The position numbers and the translations under genes were made by a program. 64,000 bases of DNA from NCBI RefSeq assembly GCF_024138125.1, contig NZ_CP099993.1, forward strand, positions 1,054,001 to 1,118,000. Direction: 5' to 3'. Shown piece after piece: positions 9,621 through 38,057 of the stretch. Source of the stretch: Halorussus salilacus (GTDB lineage Archaea > Halobacteriota > Halobacteria > Halobacteriales > Haladaptataceae). A model generated the notes under the pieces. It saw nothing but the letters and a program-made list of their open reading frames with translations. It was not told the DNA's origin and searched no databases. Every line of letters starts with the position of its first letter. Within the stretch, counting starts at the first letter, position 1.

Positions 9621-9652
9621 CTCGCGTGAGGGCCGCGGGGCCCTCACGCGAG
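9621..9652. terminator. 14-bp GC-rich hairpin at the 3' end of the Yip1 gene
   Basis: Perfect 14-bp arms at 9621-9634 and 9639-9652 with a 4-nt loop. It overlaps the last three codons of the leftward Yip1 gene, whose stop is inside the stem. Terminator role inferred from position. Confidence 0.45.
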
Positions 9653-10369
9653 CGCGAACAGGAGGCCGAGGAACGCGACCCCGCCCCCGGCGAACGCGGC
9701 CGCCCCGGTCGGGAGTTTTCGAGCGTGCTTCAGCCCGAACGTCCAGACGTACCCCTGCCAGCACGCGACGGCCAGCGACAGCAGCGCGCTCTCGCCCTGC
9801 GCGCGCCGACTCAGCGACTCGATCCGGGAGGCCAGCAGTTCGGGGTCGCTCGCGGAGAGGTCGATGCCGTTCAGCGAGACCAGCAGGAGCGCGAGGCCCG
9901 CGAGGACCTGGAACGCGGTCGGGAGCATGCCCCACGCCGCGACCGCGAGGGTGTCGGCGAACGACCCCTCGCCGCCGAAGACGGCCGAGGCGACGTGGAG
10001 GCCGACCGCGACCAGCGGCCAGCCGACGAGGACGCCCACGAACACCGTCGGGAGGTGGTCGACGAACGCGTCCCAGAGCAGGTCGCCGACCGCGACGGTA
10101 CGGTGTTCGGGCTGGTCGCAGTCCTCGTGCATCCGCTCTTCGGCCTCGGTCTCGGGTTCGTCGTCGCACACCCAGTCGGGGGGTCGATTCTCGTTCGGGA
10201 CCTCGGTCGTCGCGGTGAGCCGTTCGCTGAGCACCCACCCGAACGCGCCGAGCGCGGCGGTCGTGACAACCGCGACGGCGAGGACGACGAGGGCGGCGCT
10301 GGCGAGGCTCAGCCCCGGCGCGCGCTCGCCGAAGAACTCGTCCGGGCGGAGGAGGGCGTCGAGGACCAT
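9644..10369 (-). CDS. Yip1-family membrane protein
   Basis: A 241-residue integral membrane protein beginning [18 protein letters not shown], the typical start of haloarchaeal YIP1-domain proteins, followed by about five transmembrane helices (roughly 20-45, 105-130, 135-165, 185-210 and 220-240). An acidic/Cys-containing insert lies at about 55-85. The family role in archaea is unknown. A paralog is encoded at 14273-14911. It is monocistronic, oriented leftwards, with a GC hairpin over its stop codon. Confidence 0.82.
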
Positions 10370-12529: not shown

Positions 12530-12615
12530 GTCTCGATAGGCGCTGAGACCCATTGATATTCCGAGTGGAAGTGGTACGCGAAAGCCAACGCGAGACTACC
12601 CATCTAGTAGCATAC

Positions 12616-12651
12616 AATTATATTTTTATATAATTCTACGAAAGTTTTATA
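12616..12651 (+). promoter_or_regulatory. AT-rich promoter with inverted repeat and TATA box
   Basis: An 8-bp AT inverted repeat (arms 12616-12623 and 12628-12635) is followed by a TATA-like TTTTATAT at about 12644-12651, placed 18-25 bp before the ATG at 12669. This spacing fits a leaderless haloarchaeal transcript. The inverted repeat could be an operator; that is inference. Confidence 0.55.
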
Positions 12652-12668
12652 TTCCCGTATAGAAGATC

Positions 12669-13001
12669 ATGGATTGGTTGTTACGAATGAAGTGGAGCCA
12701 GTACCTGAGTGCGACCATCGTCGCAACGTTTCTCGTAACTGCACTTGCTGGTAGTTTCGTTGGTGGTGCAGCCGTCTCGCCCGCGTACGACGTTAAGGAT
12801 ACCGATACCGATGCCTCGGTGTCCAGTTCGACCAACGCACATACCGTGGTCGGTGCTGCAATCGGTTACGCCGACACGGGTACTATGAAAGGCGCGGCCA
12901 AGAGTGGACTCATCAGTGCTGCAACTACGGCCCCGGTCTCCGCCGCTGCCTGTGGTGCCGGTCCCGGCGGTTGCACATTCGGTGCAGGCTACCTAGCGTA
13001 G
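12669..13001 (+). CDS. small secreted/membrane Gly-Ala-rich peptide, candidate bacteriocin-like (halocin) precursor
   Basis: A 110-residue protein with one N-terminal hydrophobic segment (about residues 11-38, resembling a signal peptide ending near SFVGGAAV), a polar spacer rich in Asp/Thr/Ser (about 39-57), then a hydrophobic, Gly/Ala/Ser/Thr-rich C-terminal region of about 55 residues with two Cys (AACGAGPGGC). Codon use is lower in GC than the surrounding genes. It is followed 45 bp later by a SpoIIM/DUF95 membrane protein. DUF95 proteins accompany circular bacteriocin precursors in bacteria, so a peptide-toxin precursor is a reasonable guess, not a demonstrated function. I do not recognise the peptide family. 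Confidence 0.6.
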   Translation: MDWLLRMKWSQYLSATIVATFLVTALAGSFVGGAAVSPAYDVKDTDTDASVSSSTNAHTVVGAAIGYADTGTMKGAAKSGLISAATTAPVSAAACGAGPGGCTFGAGYLA

Positions 13002-13046
13002 TCGACTGGTGGGTCGCAACCGAAGCGTCTCCATCCTCGCTATTTT

Positions 13047-13601
13047 ATGAGCAAGCTACCATCCCGAATCGTAGAGGCGATCAGACGCAACCATCTTTTT
13101 ATCCTCGCGTCTTCTGTCGTCTACTTCTCGGGCGTCATCGTCGGGATTCTCGCGGTCTCGACTATCGAACTTGAGAGTGTCCCGACGTTCGTCGAATCGT
13201 ATCGCGTGCGAGTAGACGGAACGATGACCATTTTCGAGACGAACGCTACGGTCCTCACCACGGTTCTGGCTGGCGCGCTGACGTTCTCCGGAACCAGCCT
13301 CGTCGGATTGTTCACGAGCGGGTTCGTACACGCTGCCGTACTCGTCTCGCTTCCCGTTTCCGTCTTCGAATTCGGGAAATTCTTCGTTCCGCACGCGCTC
13401 GTCGAACTGCCTGCGGTCTGGATCGGTGGTTCCGTGGGATTGCGCATCCCCTACGAGCTGGTTCAGTTCTTGCGTGGCGTACGAACCGAATCCGTATCGA
13501 AGCGAGAAGTGATAGATATGTTACTTCTTACGATAGTCGCGTACGTCGGCATCGCATTGGCGGCAGTGATAGAGGGTGCGCTGTTACGCTACGTGACTTG
13601 A
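13047..13601 (+). CDS. SpoIIM / DUF95 family membrane protein
   Basis: A 184-residue integral membrane protein. It has the SpoIIM/DUF95 pattern: an N-terminal transmembrane segment (about 17-40), an extracellular loop with FETNATVLTTVLAG, a following helix pair, and the signature FFVPHALVELPAVWIGGSVGLRI (central PHxxxELPA), then a C-terminal helix (about 155-180). In bacteria the family includes a sporulation engulfment protein and DUF95 partners needed for making or exporting circular bacteriocins. Here it sits directly after a small hydrophobic secreted peptide, which favours a peptide-linked export or immunity role. Moderate GC relative to flanks. Confidence 0.75.
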   Translation: MSKLPSRIVEAIRRNHLFILASSVVYFSGVIVGILAVSTIELESVPTFVESYRVRVDGTMTIFETNATVLTTVLAGALTFSGTSLVGLFTSGFVHAAVLVSLPVSVFEFGKFFVPHALVELPAVWIGGSVGLRIPYELVQFLRGVRTESVSKREVIDMLLLTIVAYVGIALAAVIEGALLRYVT

Positions 13602-13643
13602 GTGCACGACGGGATTCGCTACTCGGGCGAACTCAGGAGTCAC

Positions 13644-13877
13644 TCACGTCGCGTTTCGCTCACGAATCCAGATACCCACGCCGAGGAGCGCGAAGAACGT
13701 GAGAAGGCCCGTGACACCGACCGCGAATCCCAGTAGCTCCGGCGGTCCTTGAAGACCACGGTCGAATACCGGGAGTACACCGAAGAAAATGGTGACTACG
13801 ACCAAGGCCGAGACGAACATCGCGACCATCGATTCTCCCGGATACGTCCGAACTGTCGTATTTATCCTGCTGAACAT
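13644..13877 (-). CDS. small two-helix membrane protein
   Basis: A 77-residue protein with two predicted transmembrane segments (about residues 15-37 and 45-70) and a basic C-terminus (WIRERNAT). I prefer the ATG at 13877; an earlier in-frame ATG at 13955 would add 26 polar residues without family support. It is transcribed leftwards, convergent with the SpoIIM gene (42 bp between stops) and divergent from 14024. Function unknown; in this context it could be an immunity-type protein, which is inference only. Confidence 0.55.
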   Translation of the reverse strand: MFSRINTTVRTYPGESMVAMFVSALVVVTIFFGVLPVFDRGLQGPPELLGFAVGVTGLLTFFALLGVGIWIRERNAT

Positions 13878-14023
13878 CGTCGGGTGACCGGTCCGAAGTT
13901 TGTTCCCGATGAAAATAATCGTTTCTGTGGTCGGAGGGGAGGCGGTCTTCCGCACGCGTTCATACCACTTCTTAAACTGGCCTCAGCGGTAGATATAAAT
14001 CCTATACGCTCGATATTGTACGT

Positions 14024-14257
14024 ATGGCCGACGCACACCCCTCGATATTCGCCACCGACTGGGACGAATGGGAGCATCCAAAGCGGGCGATTGCCGCGAT
14101 TTGGACCTCGGTCGCCGTCGCAATCCTCCTGTTTTTCATCTCGTTACCGACGATATTCGATTCTGGCATTCACCCAGCCATCACCATCGGCATCGCGGTT
14201 ATTCTCATGTTCGCTATTCCAGTCATCACTGTAGCGATCGTAGCTCGATTCGACTAG
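14024..14257 (+). CDS. small two-helix membrane protein
   Basis: A 77-residue protein with an acidic, Trp-containing N-terminus (ATDWDEWEHPK) and two transmembrane helices (about 22-42 and 49-72). A TATA-like ATATAAAT at 13993-14000 lies 24 bp before the ATG, which fits leaderless transcription and supports the gene being real. It ends 15 bp before the convergent Yip1 gene. No family recognised. Confidence 0.6.
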   Translation: MADAHPSIFATDWDEWEHPKRAIAAIWTSVAVAILLFFISLPTIFDSGIHPAITIGIAVILMFAIPVITVAIVARFD

Positions 14258-14272
14258 ATCGGCGGGACGCCC

Positions 14273-14911
14273 TCAGAACCCCCTGAAGACCCAGTAGACG
14301 AATATGGCGAGGGTCGGAATTGTGGCCGCCAGTGTGGATTTTCGGAACGACAGCTCGTGTGCGTTCTTGACCGCAAACGTCCAGATGAACGCCATCCACA
14401 CCAGCCCTATCGTACTGATAATCCGCGTCAGGGTCATCAACGGATGGTTCGCCAGTACGGCGCTCAGATACTGTGGCGTGACCGACTCGGACCCGATGGC
14501 TGCGAGCGCCTCGGTGAGTATGTTGAATACGAAGACGGAGTTGACGACGTTCGCGAATACCATCGGCATAAATCCCCAGCCAGCCAAGAAGATGGTTTCA
14601 CGCAGGGAGCCCTCCCCACCGATGAAAAACGCGACGAAGTGGAGCAGTATCGACGAGACGATCCACATGCCGAAGATGGCTAACATCCCTCCGACCACGC
14701 TCAAACTACCGAAGATAGCCATATACGAGGTCACTTGGTCTGGCAAGGAAGAAGTGAGATAATAGAGAATCAGCATCGGAATAAGTGCAGTCGAGATAGC
14801 CGCGAAGACGACGACGAAAATCGGTTCGAGCGACGACAGCGTTTCCGCCTCACGGCGGAAGAATTCGTCCGGATCCAGAATCAACTTCACACTCATATCT
14901 CGTTCAGACAT
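14273..14911 (-). CDS. Yip1-family membrane protein (second copy)
   Basis: A 212-residue membrane protein starting with LILDPDEFFRREAE, matching the N-terminus of the Yip1 protein at 9644-10369, followed by about five transmembrane segments and the shared FIGGEGSLRETIFLAGWGFMP block and WTFAVKNAHELSF near the C-terminus. Codon use is less GC-rich than the first copy. It is the last member of the small membrane-protein cluster starting at 12669. Function unknown. Confidence 0.8.
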   Translation of the reverse strand: MSERDMSVKLILDPDEFFRREAETLSSLEPIFVVVFAAISTALIPMLILYYLTSSLPDQVTSYMAIFGSLSVVGGMLAIFGMWIVSSILLHFVAFFIGGEGSLRETIFLAGWGFMPMVFANVVNSVFVFNILTEALAAIGSESVTPQYLSAVLANHPLMTLTRIISTIGLVWMAFIWTFAVKNAHELSFRKSTLAATIPTLAIFVYWVFRGF

Positions 14912-15060
14912 ATATTGTTTCCGGTATTTAAACTCGGCGTAAAATCAGGTGGCGAACGAGACGCTCGGACTCGCTCTCACGTCTCTCGCCCGTAGCCTCA
15001 AACGATATACCCGCCGCCGACGTAGACCGTCGCCAGACCGATAGGAAGGGAATCTCAAGA

Positions 15061-15539: not shown

Positions 15540-15600
15540 TCGACCCCGGACCCCGGCCGAAAGCACCGGGGTTAAGCCGTCGCCTCGGCTAGACCGGACC

Positions 15601-16993: not shown

Positions 16994-17124
16994 GCTACAA
17001 GTGCTCGCGCTGCAAGCGCGACGTGGAGCTCGACGAGTACGGCGGCGTCCGGTGTCCGTACTGCGGCCACCGCGTCCTCCTGAAGGAGCGGAGCCGCGAC
17101 GTGAAGGAAGTCGACGTGAACTGA
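16990..17124 (+). CDS. rpoP: DNA-directed RNA polymerase subunit P (Rpo12)
   Basis: A 44-residue zinc-binding subunit of archaeal RNA polymerase, equivalent to eukaryotic Rpb12/ABC10-alpha. The zinc ribbon is [21 protein letters not shown] (CxxC...CxxC) followed by the basic [19 protein letters not shown] tail. It is below the length that simple scans report, but the 4-bp ATGA overlap with the eL43 gene and the clear motif make it certain. Confidence 0.95.
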
Positions 17125-17165
17125 CGCAGTCACCCACGTTTCTGCCGACCGCTTTAGCCGACAGC

Positions 17166-17420
17166 ATGACGACCGACCGACCTCACGACGCCGTTCTCCG
17201 GTTCGAGTACGAGTCGCCAGCGCGCGCTCGCGTCGTGACCCGCGCCGTTTCGCAGGAGGTCGGCGAAATCGAGGGCGACCGCTCGACCGCGACCGTCGAC
17301 CGCGAGGGGTCGACGGTCGCGGTCCGGGTGACCGCCGACGACCTCGTGGCGCTCCGCGCCGGGATGAACACCTGGGGGTCGCTGGTGGAGGTCGCCGAAC
17401 GGACCGTGGACGCCGCGTAG
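17166..17420 (+). CDS. pcc1: KEOPS complex subunit Pcc1
   Basis: An 84-residue Pcc1 protein, the dimerising subunit of the KEOPS complex that makes t6A37 in tRNA. The DAVLRFEYESPARARVVTRAVSQEVGEI N-terminus, the alternation ending VAVRVTADDLVALRAGMNTWGSLV and the final helix are the family pattern. It starts 41 bp after rpoP, in the conserved order eL43-rpoP-pcc1. The prefoldin gene that usually follows has been pushed 1.7 kb away by an AT-rich islet and repeats. Confidence 0.9.
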   Translation: MTTDRPHDAVLRFEYESPARARVVTRAVSQEVGEIEGDRSTATVDREGSTVAVRVTADDLVALRAGMNTWGSLVEVAERTVDAA

Positions 17421-17545
17421 CTGTCGCTGTGCGATTTTAATGGAGTTTAGTTATCACGTTCAGTAACCACGCTCACCCGAGGCTTGACTTCGGAATAACT
17501 CATTCAGTGGCGGTGATACCGAGATTGCAGAATCTGAAGTAACAG

Positions 17546-17719
17546 CTAATTGTAATCATTTTCTTCACGGTAGTTAGTAGAGATAGTTATACTACCGATT
17601 ATAGTTTCTATCTTAATATTAATTCGATTACTTCTCTCAGCCAGAAACCATACGGCGGGCAACACAACGAGCAAATTAGCTAGAATAAACGCAAATACGA
17701 GTGCAAGTGCCCATATCAT
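17546..17719 (-). CDS. small single-helix membrane protein (57 aa)
   Basis: Reading the minus strand from ATG 17719 to TAG 17546 gives 57 residues: a strongly hydrophobic N-terminal helix (IWALALVFAFILANLLVVL, residues 2-20), a Trp-containing cap, then a polar Ile/Asn/Arg-rich tail ending ENDYN. Base composition is AT-rich with AT-ending codons, unlike the neighbouring core genes, but the frame is clean and the hydrophobic helix is well formed. It lies in a 450-bp AT-rich stretch between pcc1 and the winged-helix gene. Function unknown; could be a chance frame, so confidence is moderate. Confidence 0.45.
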   Translation of the reverse strand: MIWALALVFAFILANLLVVLPAVWFLAERSNRINIKIETIIGSITISTNYREENDYN

Positions 17720-17866
17720 CGTTGCTCAAAAAATGTGATGCATACACCCAAAAGCTTCCGAACACCGGAGTTCAATTCTAATTGGTGAAATATTGAATAT
17801 TATTCCCGATTTTCAAGTTCGAAAATATGAGAAAGGTATTCAAATTTAGAATAATTGCCTACAAAT

Positions 17867-18367
17867 ATGGTAGAGTTCAAAACGCCCATGGTCGATCATC
17901 CACCAAGCGAAATCGAAGGAATTGAAGAAGGGAAATGGACGTTGATAACAGTCTCAGAAGATTGTGAACTGACGGATAAGCAATGGAATCAACTCACTCA
18001 TGGGACAATAAGACAACATAATAGAGATACTGGCCAAGGTGAAAATCTTAGGCCTATCAAATCAACAGAACCCAGCCCCGAGGGCGATCATATAGGCTGG
18101 ATAAAACTTAATATATCGGACCTTTATAAGGTCCTCTACGAGCATAAGCGTTATTCATCCGCCAAAGGTTTCTCCAATAGTGAAATGGATGTTCTCAGGG
18201 CGATTGAGGAAACGCGCGAAAATCGAGTGATGTTGCAGGATTTCAAACATGATTTTAGAGTGGAAGATTATGCAGAGTCGACAATTTATAATGCATTGAA
18301 TGGTCTTGTTGAGAAAGAGTTGCTTGAGCGAGTCGGACGGGGAGTGTATAGATATACAGGACCGTGA
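17867..18367 (+). CDS. AT-rich winged-helix protein of unknown family
   Basis: A 166-residue soluble protein with low-GC codon use. The C-terminal 70 residues look like a winged helix: FSNSEMDVLRAIEETRENRVM, YAESTIYNALNGLVEKELL and RVGRGVYRYTGP as wing. The N-terminal half (about residues 1-95) is acidic and has DLYKVLYEHKRYSS. ATG 17867 is chosen over a TTG at 17855; a TATA-like AAATTTAGA lies about 20-26 bp upstream. It is a foreign-looking gene in the islet that separates pcc1 from prefoldin. Target unknown. Confidence 0.6.
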   Translation: MVEFKTPMVDHPPSEIEGIEEGKWTLITVSEDCELTDKQWNQLTHGTIRQHNRDTGQGENLRPIKSTEPSPEGDHIGWIKLNISDLYKVLYEHKRYSSAKGFSNSEMDVLRAIEETRENRVMLQDFKHDFRVEDYAESTIYNALNGLVEKELLERVGRGVYRYTGP

Positions 18368-18481
18368 CTTTTGTTACAGTCACCAGAGGCTCATACGCAG
18401 AATATCAGATTTTATCAGAGAAGGCATAGCGGCTGAGCTAACAGAGTTATTTCTACTATAAATAAGCCGATATTTTCTCCA

Positions 18482-18625
18482 TCACCCCCACTCGTCTTCC
18501 CCACCCTCCAGATTCACCTCCGGCCACTCCGATAGCGACTCCCACCCGAGTTTGTCGCCGAGTCGCTCTAACGCTTCGCCGACGCTCTCGCCCCAAGGGA
18601 AGGTGATTCGATTCGATTTGACCAT
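18482..18625 (-). CDS. small haloarchaeal protein (47-50 aa)
   Basis: Minus-strand frame from ATG 18625 (or ATG 18634, three residues longer) to TGA 18482. It encodes VKSNRITFPWGESVGEAL, ERLGDKLGWESLSEWPEV, then NLEGGEDEWG. The amphipathic Glu/Leu helix, two Trp-containing segments and acidic composition look like a real short haloarchaeal protein or the tail of a decayed one, with normal GC codon use. No family recognised. It lies between the AT-rich islet and repeat copy D. Confidence 0.45.
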   Translation of the reverse strand: MVKSNRITFPWGESVGEALERLGDKLGWESLSEWPEVNLEGGEDEWG

Positions 18626-18729
18626 CAGAGACATCGACACGACCGACTCAACTCCAGAACAGTCCCAGAGAGCCCCCGGCCGGTCACGCGAGTGAAACGA
18701 GCGTGACGTTGTCGGAGCGTGCCTCCGAC

Positions 18730-18846
18730 AGAACTCGCGGTCGCTGACGCGGGATATTCAGGCCTCTCCGCAACACCCGGCCTGAATAGTGGCCCGCGCA
18801 GGCGACCAAGACGAGCGCGAGCGGCCGGACCCTTTCAATCCGACCC
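18730..18846 (-). repeat. structured intergenic repeat family 1, copy D
   Basis: Read on the minus strand it begins GATTGAAAGGG and has the same order as copy A. Inner hairpin arms are 18735-18744 and 18779-18788 (TATTCAGGCC with GGCCTGAATA), closed by a CGCGGG/CCCGCG stem with the CCACTAT/ATATCCCG junction. The outer stem is degenerate. It abuts repeat family 2 copy 2 tail to head. Confidence 0.6.
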
Positions 18847-18850
18847 GACA

Positions 18851-19040
18851 GCACCGCACCGCGACCGCAGGCCACATACCTCCCCAACCGACTGCGTTTC
18901 TCGGGCGCTCACTGCGTTCGCGCCCTGCGATACTCATCCACCGGGAGAGACGGGCTCTCCCGAGCCGTCGGTCGTTTACTCCCGACGACCTCGCACGCCT
19001 TGGCGCGGCGCAACACAGCTACGCCGCGCCAGCGCGCGCC
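18851..19040 (+). repeat. intergenic repeat family 2, copy 2
   Basis: Second copy of the element at 1501-1650, with the same core CCTCCCCAACCGACTGCG (about 18879-18896), the CTCATCC block and a 3' hairpin (arms 19001-19010 and 19022-19031) followed by AGCGCGCGCC. It lies about 90 bp before the prefoldin start. It is interrupted by an extra internal hairpin segment compared with copy 1. Confidence 0.65.
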
Positions 19041-36920: not shown

Positions 36921-37382
36921 TTATAAGTCAGTTTCAAATGACTCTTCGCGAACTTGTCTATTGATCTGCTCAACGTACTCTGTGGAGCTACCTTCAAAAT
37001 TGAGTTCTACATCCCCACCGCTATTAACTGTCATTCCAGATACGGTTGTGTCATCATTCCAAACGGATTGGTACGTAGCCTGAATCTTTCGTGGAGTATC
37101 TTCAGTTTCGCGTTTTGCACGAACTCCGACAGCAAACGACGCCCCATCGCATCCATAACCACATGCATCCCAATCACTATACGACCACATTGCCCCGTTG
37201 AAAGACGACTGCACTAGGTGAACATTAGTAGCATCTTCGGTGAAAGTGCCATCTTCTGGCAGATCGTAATCCTCTGACTTCCAAGAGAGGGTTACAACAT
37301 CATTGTTCTTCTCGCCAGTTCCATAGCCACCATCCAGCTCTATATGGTAGTCGGAGACAGTATGTGTGTAGTCTCCACCCAT
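36921..37382 (-). CDS. AT-rich secreted-type protein, frame open upstream but without a start codon
   Basis: From the first ATG (37382) the protein has 153 residues, acidic and beta-rich, with WSYSDWDACGYGCDGASFAVGV and a Cys pair. The same frame stays open to about 37680 and encodes KALKVVGTGLSISGLSAVGAATREE, which looks like a signal peptide, and then DLEDIYWQARKIRDETGSQ; it has no ATG, GTG or TTG. An ATG at 37690 in another frame could be joined by one frameshift at the GGGGAAAA run (about 37660-37667). So the intact protein was probably about 250 residues and the present gene may be frameshifted. Family unknown. Confidence 0.5.
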   Translation of the reverse strand: MGGDYTHTVSDYHIELDGGYGTGEKNNDVVTLSWKSEDYDLPEDGTFTEDATNVHLVQSSFNGAMWSYSDWDACGYGCDGASFAVGVRAKRETEDTPRKIQATYQSVWNDDTTVSGMTVNSGGDVELNFEGSSTEYVEQINRQVREESFETDL

Positions 37383-37724
37383 GGTGAGTGTTGCAGTCAG
37401 ATTTGATGACTCAACTTTTTCGCTGGAAACATCCTCTGACTGTTTGGTGTAGTGTGGTTTTTGTACCTCATCCGTATAGGATTCAACCCCAACACAATGT
37501 GCCCGTAGATATTCAACAAACCTCTCTTGACTTCCCGTTTCGTCGCGTATTTTGCGAGCTTGCCAGTAGATATCTTCAAGGTCTCTTTCTTCGCGAGTTG
37601 CGGCTCCGACCGCCGAAAGTCCACTGATACTGAGACCAGTGCCGACTACTTTTAGTGCTTTTCCCCGGCCAACCCAATTATTACTACCATTTATATTTTA
37701 TAACTCTATTATTTACATATAAAT

Positions 37725-38057
37725 CTAATTATTAATGTTCCTTTTGTTTATATACACAAATACACCACCACCTAAACCGGAAGTGAACAGGAGATAGATG
37801 GACTTCTCAACAAGAGGATGAACTAATTGCCACCAGTTTCGAACTTCATCTGACGCAGTCCCATCTACCAATCTTATGATTGAGACAACACTAATAACCC
37901 CAAGACCAACAATCGTTCCGTATTTTGCGCCCGATTCAATAGAATCTCCTTCTAAATAACCAACTATTCCACCGGCAATAAAAGCGCCACCAGAAGTGGT
38001 TGGGAGAATAAGAGCGGTCACTATTCCGACTAGAACGGTAGACCATCTTTTTTGCAT
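37725..38057 (-). CDS. DUF5518-like small membrane protein
   Basis: A 110-residue protein with AT-rich codons. It begins MQKRWSTVLVGIVTALILP, then GGAFIAGGIVGYLEGDSIESGAKYGTIVGLGVISV, which fits the DUF5518 pattern (GGxxAGYLxG...G) of haloarchaeal small membrane proteins. Three hydrophobic segments (about 5-25, 27-35 with the Gly turn, 45-62) and a C-terminal helix (about 88-105). It is in the AT-rich islet between FemX and its decayed copy. Function unknown. Confidence 0.6.
   Translation of the reverse strand: MQKRWSTVLVGIVTALILPTTSGGAFIAGGIVGYLEGDSIESGAKYGTIVGLGVISVVSIIRLVDGTASDEVRNWWQLVHPLVEKSIYLLFTSGLGGGVFVYINKRNINN

Follow-up and report, generated by a model that had tools for sequence, protein, structure and literature searches.

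A candidate archaeocin cassette with SpoIIM and Yip1 genes in Halorussus salilacus and other archaea

A five-gene island beside TruD

The window analysed here, a stretch of 64,000 nucleotides from Halorussus salilacus, contains a cassette of five genes, recognized from open reading frames and Pfam matches, that encode a small peptide, a SpoIIM (DUF95) protein, two tiny 2-TM proteins and a Yip1-family protein (Table 1). All five features had been named in a preliminary description of this DNA and were found where it had placed them. Its family assignments also hold, as SpoIIM matches PF01944 with 51.9 bits (E 1e-13) and Yip1 matches PF04893 with 64.9 bits. The SpoIIM gene follows the peptide gene after 45 bp. 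The two 2-TM proteins, with a putative role in immunity, are about 77 aa each (the probable start of the ORF at 13644-13955(-) is at 13877), and neither they nor the peptide matched any family in Pfam or NCBIfam. No ATP-binding protein is encoded between 12538 and 14985, and none was seen in the other haloarchaeal cassettes. All five genes recur with the same order and orientation at L180 (G453:C10) in an unrelated haloarchaeal genome, in a different family and a different context, with identities of 47% for SpoIIM, 31-48% for the small proteins, both of which are conserved, and 48% for Yip1.

Table 1. Features of the cassette in the window, and cassette loci elsewhere in haloarchaea
Feature	Position	Strand	Basis or remark
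Low-GC inserted island with five-gene cassette	~12538..14985		congener comparison and GC
AT-rich promoter region 5' of peptide gene	12611..12660	+	sequence; TTTTATAT at ~12646-12653
Precursor peptide gene, 104 aa	12687..13001	+	homologue L180:5398-5712; ATG at 12669 also open
Leader: hydrophobic helix and polar spacer	12687..12833	+	31% identity to L180 homologue
Core: 55 Gly/Ala-rich residues, two conserved Cys	12834..12998	+	67% identity to L180 homologue
SpoIIM/DUF95 integral membrane protein, 184 aa, mostly helical	13047..13601	+	PF01944
Small 2-TM protein, immunity candidate	13644..13877	-	L180 homologue in matching place and orientation; ORF open to 13955
Small 2-TM protein, immunity candidate	14024..14257	+	stretch DWDEWEHPKRAIAAIW identical in L180 homologue
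Yip1-family membrane protein	14273..14911	-	PF04893; 48% identity to L180 copy
Second cassette in the same genome	L074:5935-9000; G000:C1:1824900-1828400 (C1:1826550)		two peptide genes
Cassette locus, G196			peptide and SpoIIM; Yip1 not found beside
Cassette locus, G161
Cassette loci, G177			four complete, one without peptide
Cassette locus, G371			Haloarculaceae archaeon H-GB1-1
Cassette locus, G169			weaker peptide, GTG start
Cassette locus, L114			Natrinema gelatinilyticum
Cassette loci, G402 (two), G428, G453 (two), G467

The lower GC content claimed for this region is evident (0.54-0.56, against ~0.70 around it), and TTTTATAT, upstream of the peptide gene, is by its position a candidate TATA box. 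The island is bordered on its 5' side by TruD, a conserved gene present in 18/18 species of the genus searched, and on its 3' side by a gene for a zinc-ribbon protein. We compared ~1.5 kb beyond TruD in 17 congeners. In most of them, the zinc-ribbon homologue (window ~15086; in two species the alignment runs from 14985-14991) or the next gene (window ~15560-15600) lies within tens to several hundred bases of TruD, and in a few the downstream gene was not recognised. Nothing matching 12540-14985 follows TruD within this distance in any of the 17, which makes the cassette an insertion; a search for flanking repeats gave nothing convincing at its ends.

Two more GC dips occur in the window, at 17000-19000 (0.52-0.54), with a 170-aa ORF (17855-18367) that gives a weak AbiEi-type HTH match, and at 37000-38000 (0.44). 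A second Yip1-family protein is encoded near TruD (9644-10369(-)); as this region is conserved in several congeners, the gene looks chromosomal and unrelated to the cassette.

Leader and core of the peptide

The peptide ORF (12669-13001(+), 110 aa) displays the three parts attributed to it in the preliminary description, namely a leader-like hydrophobic helix at the N terminus, then a polar spacer and 55 final residues rich in Gly and Ala. The alignment with the L180 homologue favours a start at 12687 (104 aa). The two peptides are 50% identical overall, with 15/49 identical positions in the leader and 37/55 in the last 55 residues, and they share the two core Cys. The corresponding pN is 0.20 in the core and 0.42 in the leader, values of which only the direction was used since dS is near saturation. 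Among haloarchaeal homologues, L064 compared with L114/L195 gives a peptide dN/dS of 0.40-0.42, with dN at 0.13-0.15 for the leader and only 0.054 for the core. These comparisons indicate purifying selection on the peptide, which in the haloarchaeal homologues acts more strongly on the core, and the division of the precursor into leader and core is derived from this pattern of conservation. The single-sequence AlphaFold model contains one helix, at residues 4-25, and is of low confidence overall (pLDDT 45).

Neither a pattern scan with the window peptide, which gave no relative, nor a class-wide protein search, which gave weak Gly/Ala noise only, led to the L180 homologue; it was reached via SpoIIM. 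We also used a detector based on composition (60-140 aa, hydrophobic helix at the N terminus, weakly charged tail rich in Gly/Ala/Ser/Thr/Val), whose thresholds were chosen after the window peptide had been seen. Its single match in the 64-kb window is the 12669/12687 peptide gene, which is also the only match in 175 kb of background loci; elsewhere in the haloarchaeal DNA scanned, it matched only genes adjoining cassette SpoIIM genes. The bacteriocin models of Pfam and NCBIfam, including PF09221, PF12173 and TIGR03651, gave no match in window, haloarchaeal or Archaeoglobi-type peptides; the positive control, one precursor of Priestia megaterium plasmid p2, does match PF09221 and TIGR03651, lying just above the cut-off for both. 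The window peptide likewise had no halocin match above cut-off in these two libraries, neither of which was seen to contain a model dedicated to halocins. In viral contigs, the window Yip1 has no relative; for an L068-type peptide, the single match obtained is short and weak.

Related cassettes in haloarchaea and other archaea

The SpoIIM genes that are the best haloarchaeal matches are preceded by short ORFs rich in Gly and Ala, with a helix at the N terminus. The recurring haloarchaeal unit consists of Yip1 (often divergent), the peptide, one small 2-TM ORF and SpoIIM, and peptide, SpoIIM and Yip1, with or without the small membrane ORF, were found at another ~17 loci, spread over 11 haloarchaeal genomes. 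The second cassette of the H. salilacus genome (L074) encodes two different Gly/Ala peptides (93 and 98 aa), SpoIIM, Yip1 and, downstream, an HTH regulator; such regulators also adjoin cassettes in G177 and G453.

Most of the genomes surveyed carry canonical SpoIIM genes as well, either stand-alone or as frames of 300-600 aa, which belong to the same Pfam family, have no peptide and generally no Yip1, and lie among other neighbours. A pattern scan could be based on the alignment of a SpoIIM subset, that of the full set being too diverse. With the SpoIIM profile, cassette copies score 99-162 bits in leave-one-out runs and canonical ones up to 138; because these ranges overlap, the two kinds were told apart by context. 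We recorded the neighbours of 122 distinct SpoIIM genes, each flanked by at least 1.2 kb of sequence. An upstream peptide and a nearby Yip1 occur together at 26, one alone at 5 and 8, and neither at 83 (Fisher p ~8e-15, an indicative value as the SpoIIM genes are related by descent). A few SpoIIM/Yip1 loci have no recognisable peptide. Thus, the co-occurrence of such peptides with DUF95 that the preliminary description proposed to look for does exist in archaea, and Yip1 and small 2-TM genes travel along. Its reading was to fall if SpoIIM genes of relatives were stably linked with unrelated genes and had no small peptide before them; the canonical haloarchaeal SpoIIM genes do lack the peptide, but form a separate set with other neighbours.

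A phylum-wide search with the SpoIIM of Methanomethylovorans hollandica led to an Archaeoglobaceae-like family (f15) with one to four SpoIIM copies per genome, most of whose loci have the haloarchaeal cassette layout. The 19 distinct Archaeoglobi-type peptides have a common leader, MYAVKNWNEEVxKWLAVGMxLAMVGMAVMP, and divergent Gly/Ala-rich cores (column entropy 1.29 bits in the leader and 2.10 bits in the rest), which is the layout typical of bacteriocins and RiPPs. One of these cores aligned with the haloarchaeal L068 core with a score of 125 (shuffles, 48 +/- 6.8); judged by this alignment, the cores of the two groups are homologous beyond composition. One Archaeoglobaceae-like locus (L230, G573:C11:6000-18000) has three tandem SpoIIM cassettes with similar leaders and three different cores, an apparent peptide arsenal. 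Internal stops occur in some Archaeoglobi-type SpoIIM copies (L204/L234 in G615, and G489, G663 and G643), which suggests turnover or decay of cassettes. The M. hollandica gene itself lies on plasmid pMETHO01 (L163, 88023-98430) with YIP1, a regulator and two near-identical 66-aa hydrophobic ORFs, and ABC-transporter genes are found a few kb away; this set is possibly a methanogen bacteriocin cluster with a short leader.

In a tree of 67 SpoIIM proteins, the M. hollandica and Archaeoglobi-type sequences form a supported group (96/82), which also includes one long-branched Clostridium sequence. The haloarchaeal cassette SpoIIMs fall into several supported groups near it, mostly on branches separate from those of the canonical haloarchaeal proteins, 15/18 of which cluster together. 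With many long branches and unsupported deep forks, this tree is compatible with a single origin of the cassette SpoIIMs without showing it, and gives no firm grouping of the archaeal ones with those of bacterial bacteriocin clusters. No PDB sequence matched the SpoIIM profile. Structures in the PDB resemble the AlphaFold model of the window SpoIIM (pLDDT 87.8) only weakly (best E 1.9 with Foldseek; Z 5-7 with VIA-align), with several ABC-importer permeases among unrelated helical bundles, and we therefore read no function from the fold.

Likeness to bacteriocin clusters and probable function

For the circular bacteriocins of bacteria, SpoIIM is described as the partner that defines the class (PMC13289728). 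A precursor, a DUF95 protein and an ATP-binding protein are encoded in every known cluster (PMC8534725), and a Yip1 protein is a common, not an obligatory, member (PMC8659200). Plasmid p2 of P. megaterium is annotated with YIP1, four circular bacteriocins of the uberolysin/carnocyclin type and SpoIIM, with ABC genes around. Together with these reports, it supports the parallel with circular bacteriocins drawn in the preliminary description. A SpoIIM match in Clostridium psychrophilum (L139:1738-5517) lies together with a 75-aa hydrophobic ORF (no Pfam/NCBIfam match), a 502-aa membrane protein and an ABC ATPase, a set that resembles a cluster for a circular bacteriocin.

The archaeal cassettes are similar to such clusters (uberolysin/carnocyclin type, cerecyclin) in having a small precursor with a hydrophobic core, an adjoining SpoIIM gene and a Yip1 gene in the cluster, and their small hydrophobic 2-TM proteins may correspond to immunity proteins; some of the bacterial clusters have tandem precursors, and L074 has two. 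The main structural difference is that the archaeal cassette has no ATP-binding subunit. In addition, its leader is longer than those of the Priestia precursors, its peptides do not match PF09221, PF12173 or TIGR03651, and its host is an archaeon; cyclisation of the product is putative. The ABC transporter that the preliminary description had suggested seeking in the clusters of relatives is absent from the haloarchaeal cassettes. Its reading of the locus as precursor, export protein and immunity candidates is partly supported, by the co-occurrence and by the Yip1 and 2-TM partners.

Like halocins, the cassette peptide is a hydrophobic, secreted-type haloarchaeal peptide, and it would functionally be an archaeocin; unlike them, it has no database match to any named family, and we found no mention of SpoIIM or Yip1 in connection with halocins in the literature searched. 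Another parallel is offered by YknW, a Yip1-family protein that is part of a transporter shielding Bacillus from the SDP toxin (PMC4887032). There too, a Yip1-family protein is tied to a hydrophobic peptide toxin, and SDP has one disulfide, to be compared with the two conserved Cys of the window core. The window cassette differs in having no MFP or ABC components, and SpoIIM is not named as a component of YknWXYZ. Against the YknW model (NF052650, cut-off 110), cassette Yip1 homologues score 15-19 bits and that of M. hollandica 26 bits, and the window Yip1 gives no match.

SpoIIM and Yip1 could be ordinary envelope genes that have come to lie by chance beside a structural membrane peptide without any antagonistic role, given that both families are common in haloarchaea and canonical SpoIIM genes occur in most genomes. 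However, canonical SpoIIM loci lack the peptide, the association is strong and the five-gene order is conserved in unrelated genomes; judged by synteny, a fortuitous neighbourhood appears largely refuted and is very improbable. A pheromone-like, non-killing peptide for signalling or kin recognition, with SpoIIM and Yip1 as export and response apparatus, would fit the leader/core precursors, the diversified cores and the HTH regulators beside some cassettes equally well. We nevertheless consider it unlikely, as a membrane-active peptide would better explain the strong hydrophobicity of the Gly/Ala cores and the small membrane proteins beside them, the cassette has no receptor or kinase, and the bacterial parallel in Priestia is antimicrobial.

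The peptide could also act inside its producer, restrained by the 2-TM and Yip1 proteins, as in a toxin-antitoxin system or a phage-triggered depolariser. The sporadic island, the small hydrophobic peptide with several membrane partners and the glycine-zipper-like stretches in some peptides (L070, weak PF05433 match) agree with such a role, but PADLOC gave no relevant match to the cassette proteins, phage or defence neighbours were not noticed in the cassettes looked at, and an N-terminal leader with the SpoIIM/Yip1 pairing points to export. A cell-internal system thus seems quite unlikely.

We consider it likely that this is a mobile archaeocin cassette working like a bacterial circular-bacteriocin cluster, yet it is not classifiable as one, having no ATP-binding subunit and no match to bacteriocin models; its product is probably an archaeal antimicrobial peptide. 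The sequence comparisons establish the gene content, its recurrence, the insertion, the conservation of all parts and the leader/core division; from the bacterial parallel, we infer the following course of maturation, export, killing and protection. The 104-aa precursor would consist of a membrane-directed leader (~49 aa) and a core of ~55 aa, and SpoIIM, alone or with a host ATPase, would bind it at the membrane and take part in its maturation and export. The cassette would either borrow a host ATPase or function without one. Cleavage of the leader would release the hydrophobic Gly/Ala core, perhaps as a head-to-tail circle and/or with a bridge between its two Cys, and this core would insert into the membranes of competitors, and Yip1 and the two 2-TM proteins may shield the producer or help to build the export complex. 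More tentatively, and with some doubt, one may suppose an archaeal family of leader-bearing antimicrobial peptides, cyclised head to tail, which SpoIIM and Yip1 would mature and export with no dedicated ATPase. Such a family would have spread laterally through the haloarchaea, and in Archaeoglobaceae it would have expanded by diversifying its cores behind a common leader.

As a kind, the SpoIIM/Yip1-linked bacteriocin cluster is known from bacteria; the host domain, the peptides and the missing ATPase are new. We found no link between SpoIIM and archaeal antimicrobials in the literature searched, and an earlier mention in a survey of archaeal toxins or archaeocins is possible. The peptide antimicrobials reported from archaea are only halocins, sulfolobicins and a few lanthipeptides (PMC10105419). 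If our reading is true, a SpoIIM/Yip1-linked precursor family in two archaeal classes would offer a rule by which many more could be sought, and would connect the archaeal and bacterial machineries of circular bacteriocins. For the latter, no enzyme is known for leader removal and core cyclisation (PMC8659200), a question that could become tractable in a small system, as the cassette is a minimal set of five genes without a dedicated ATPase.
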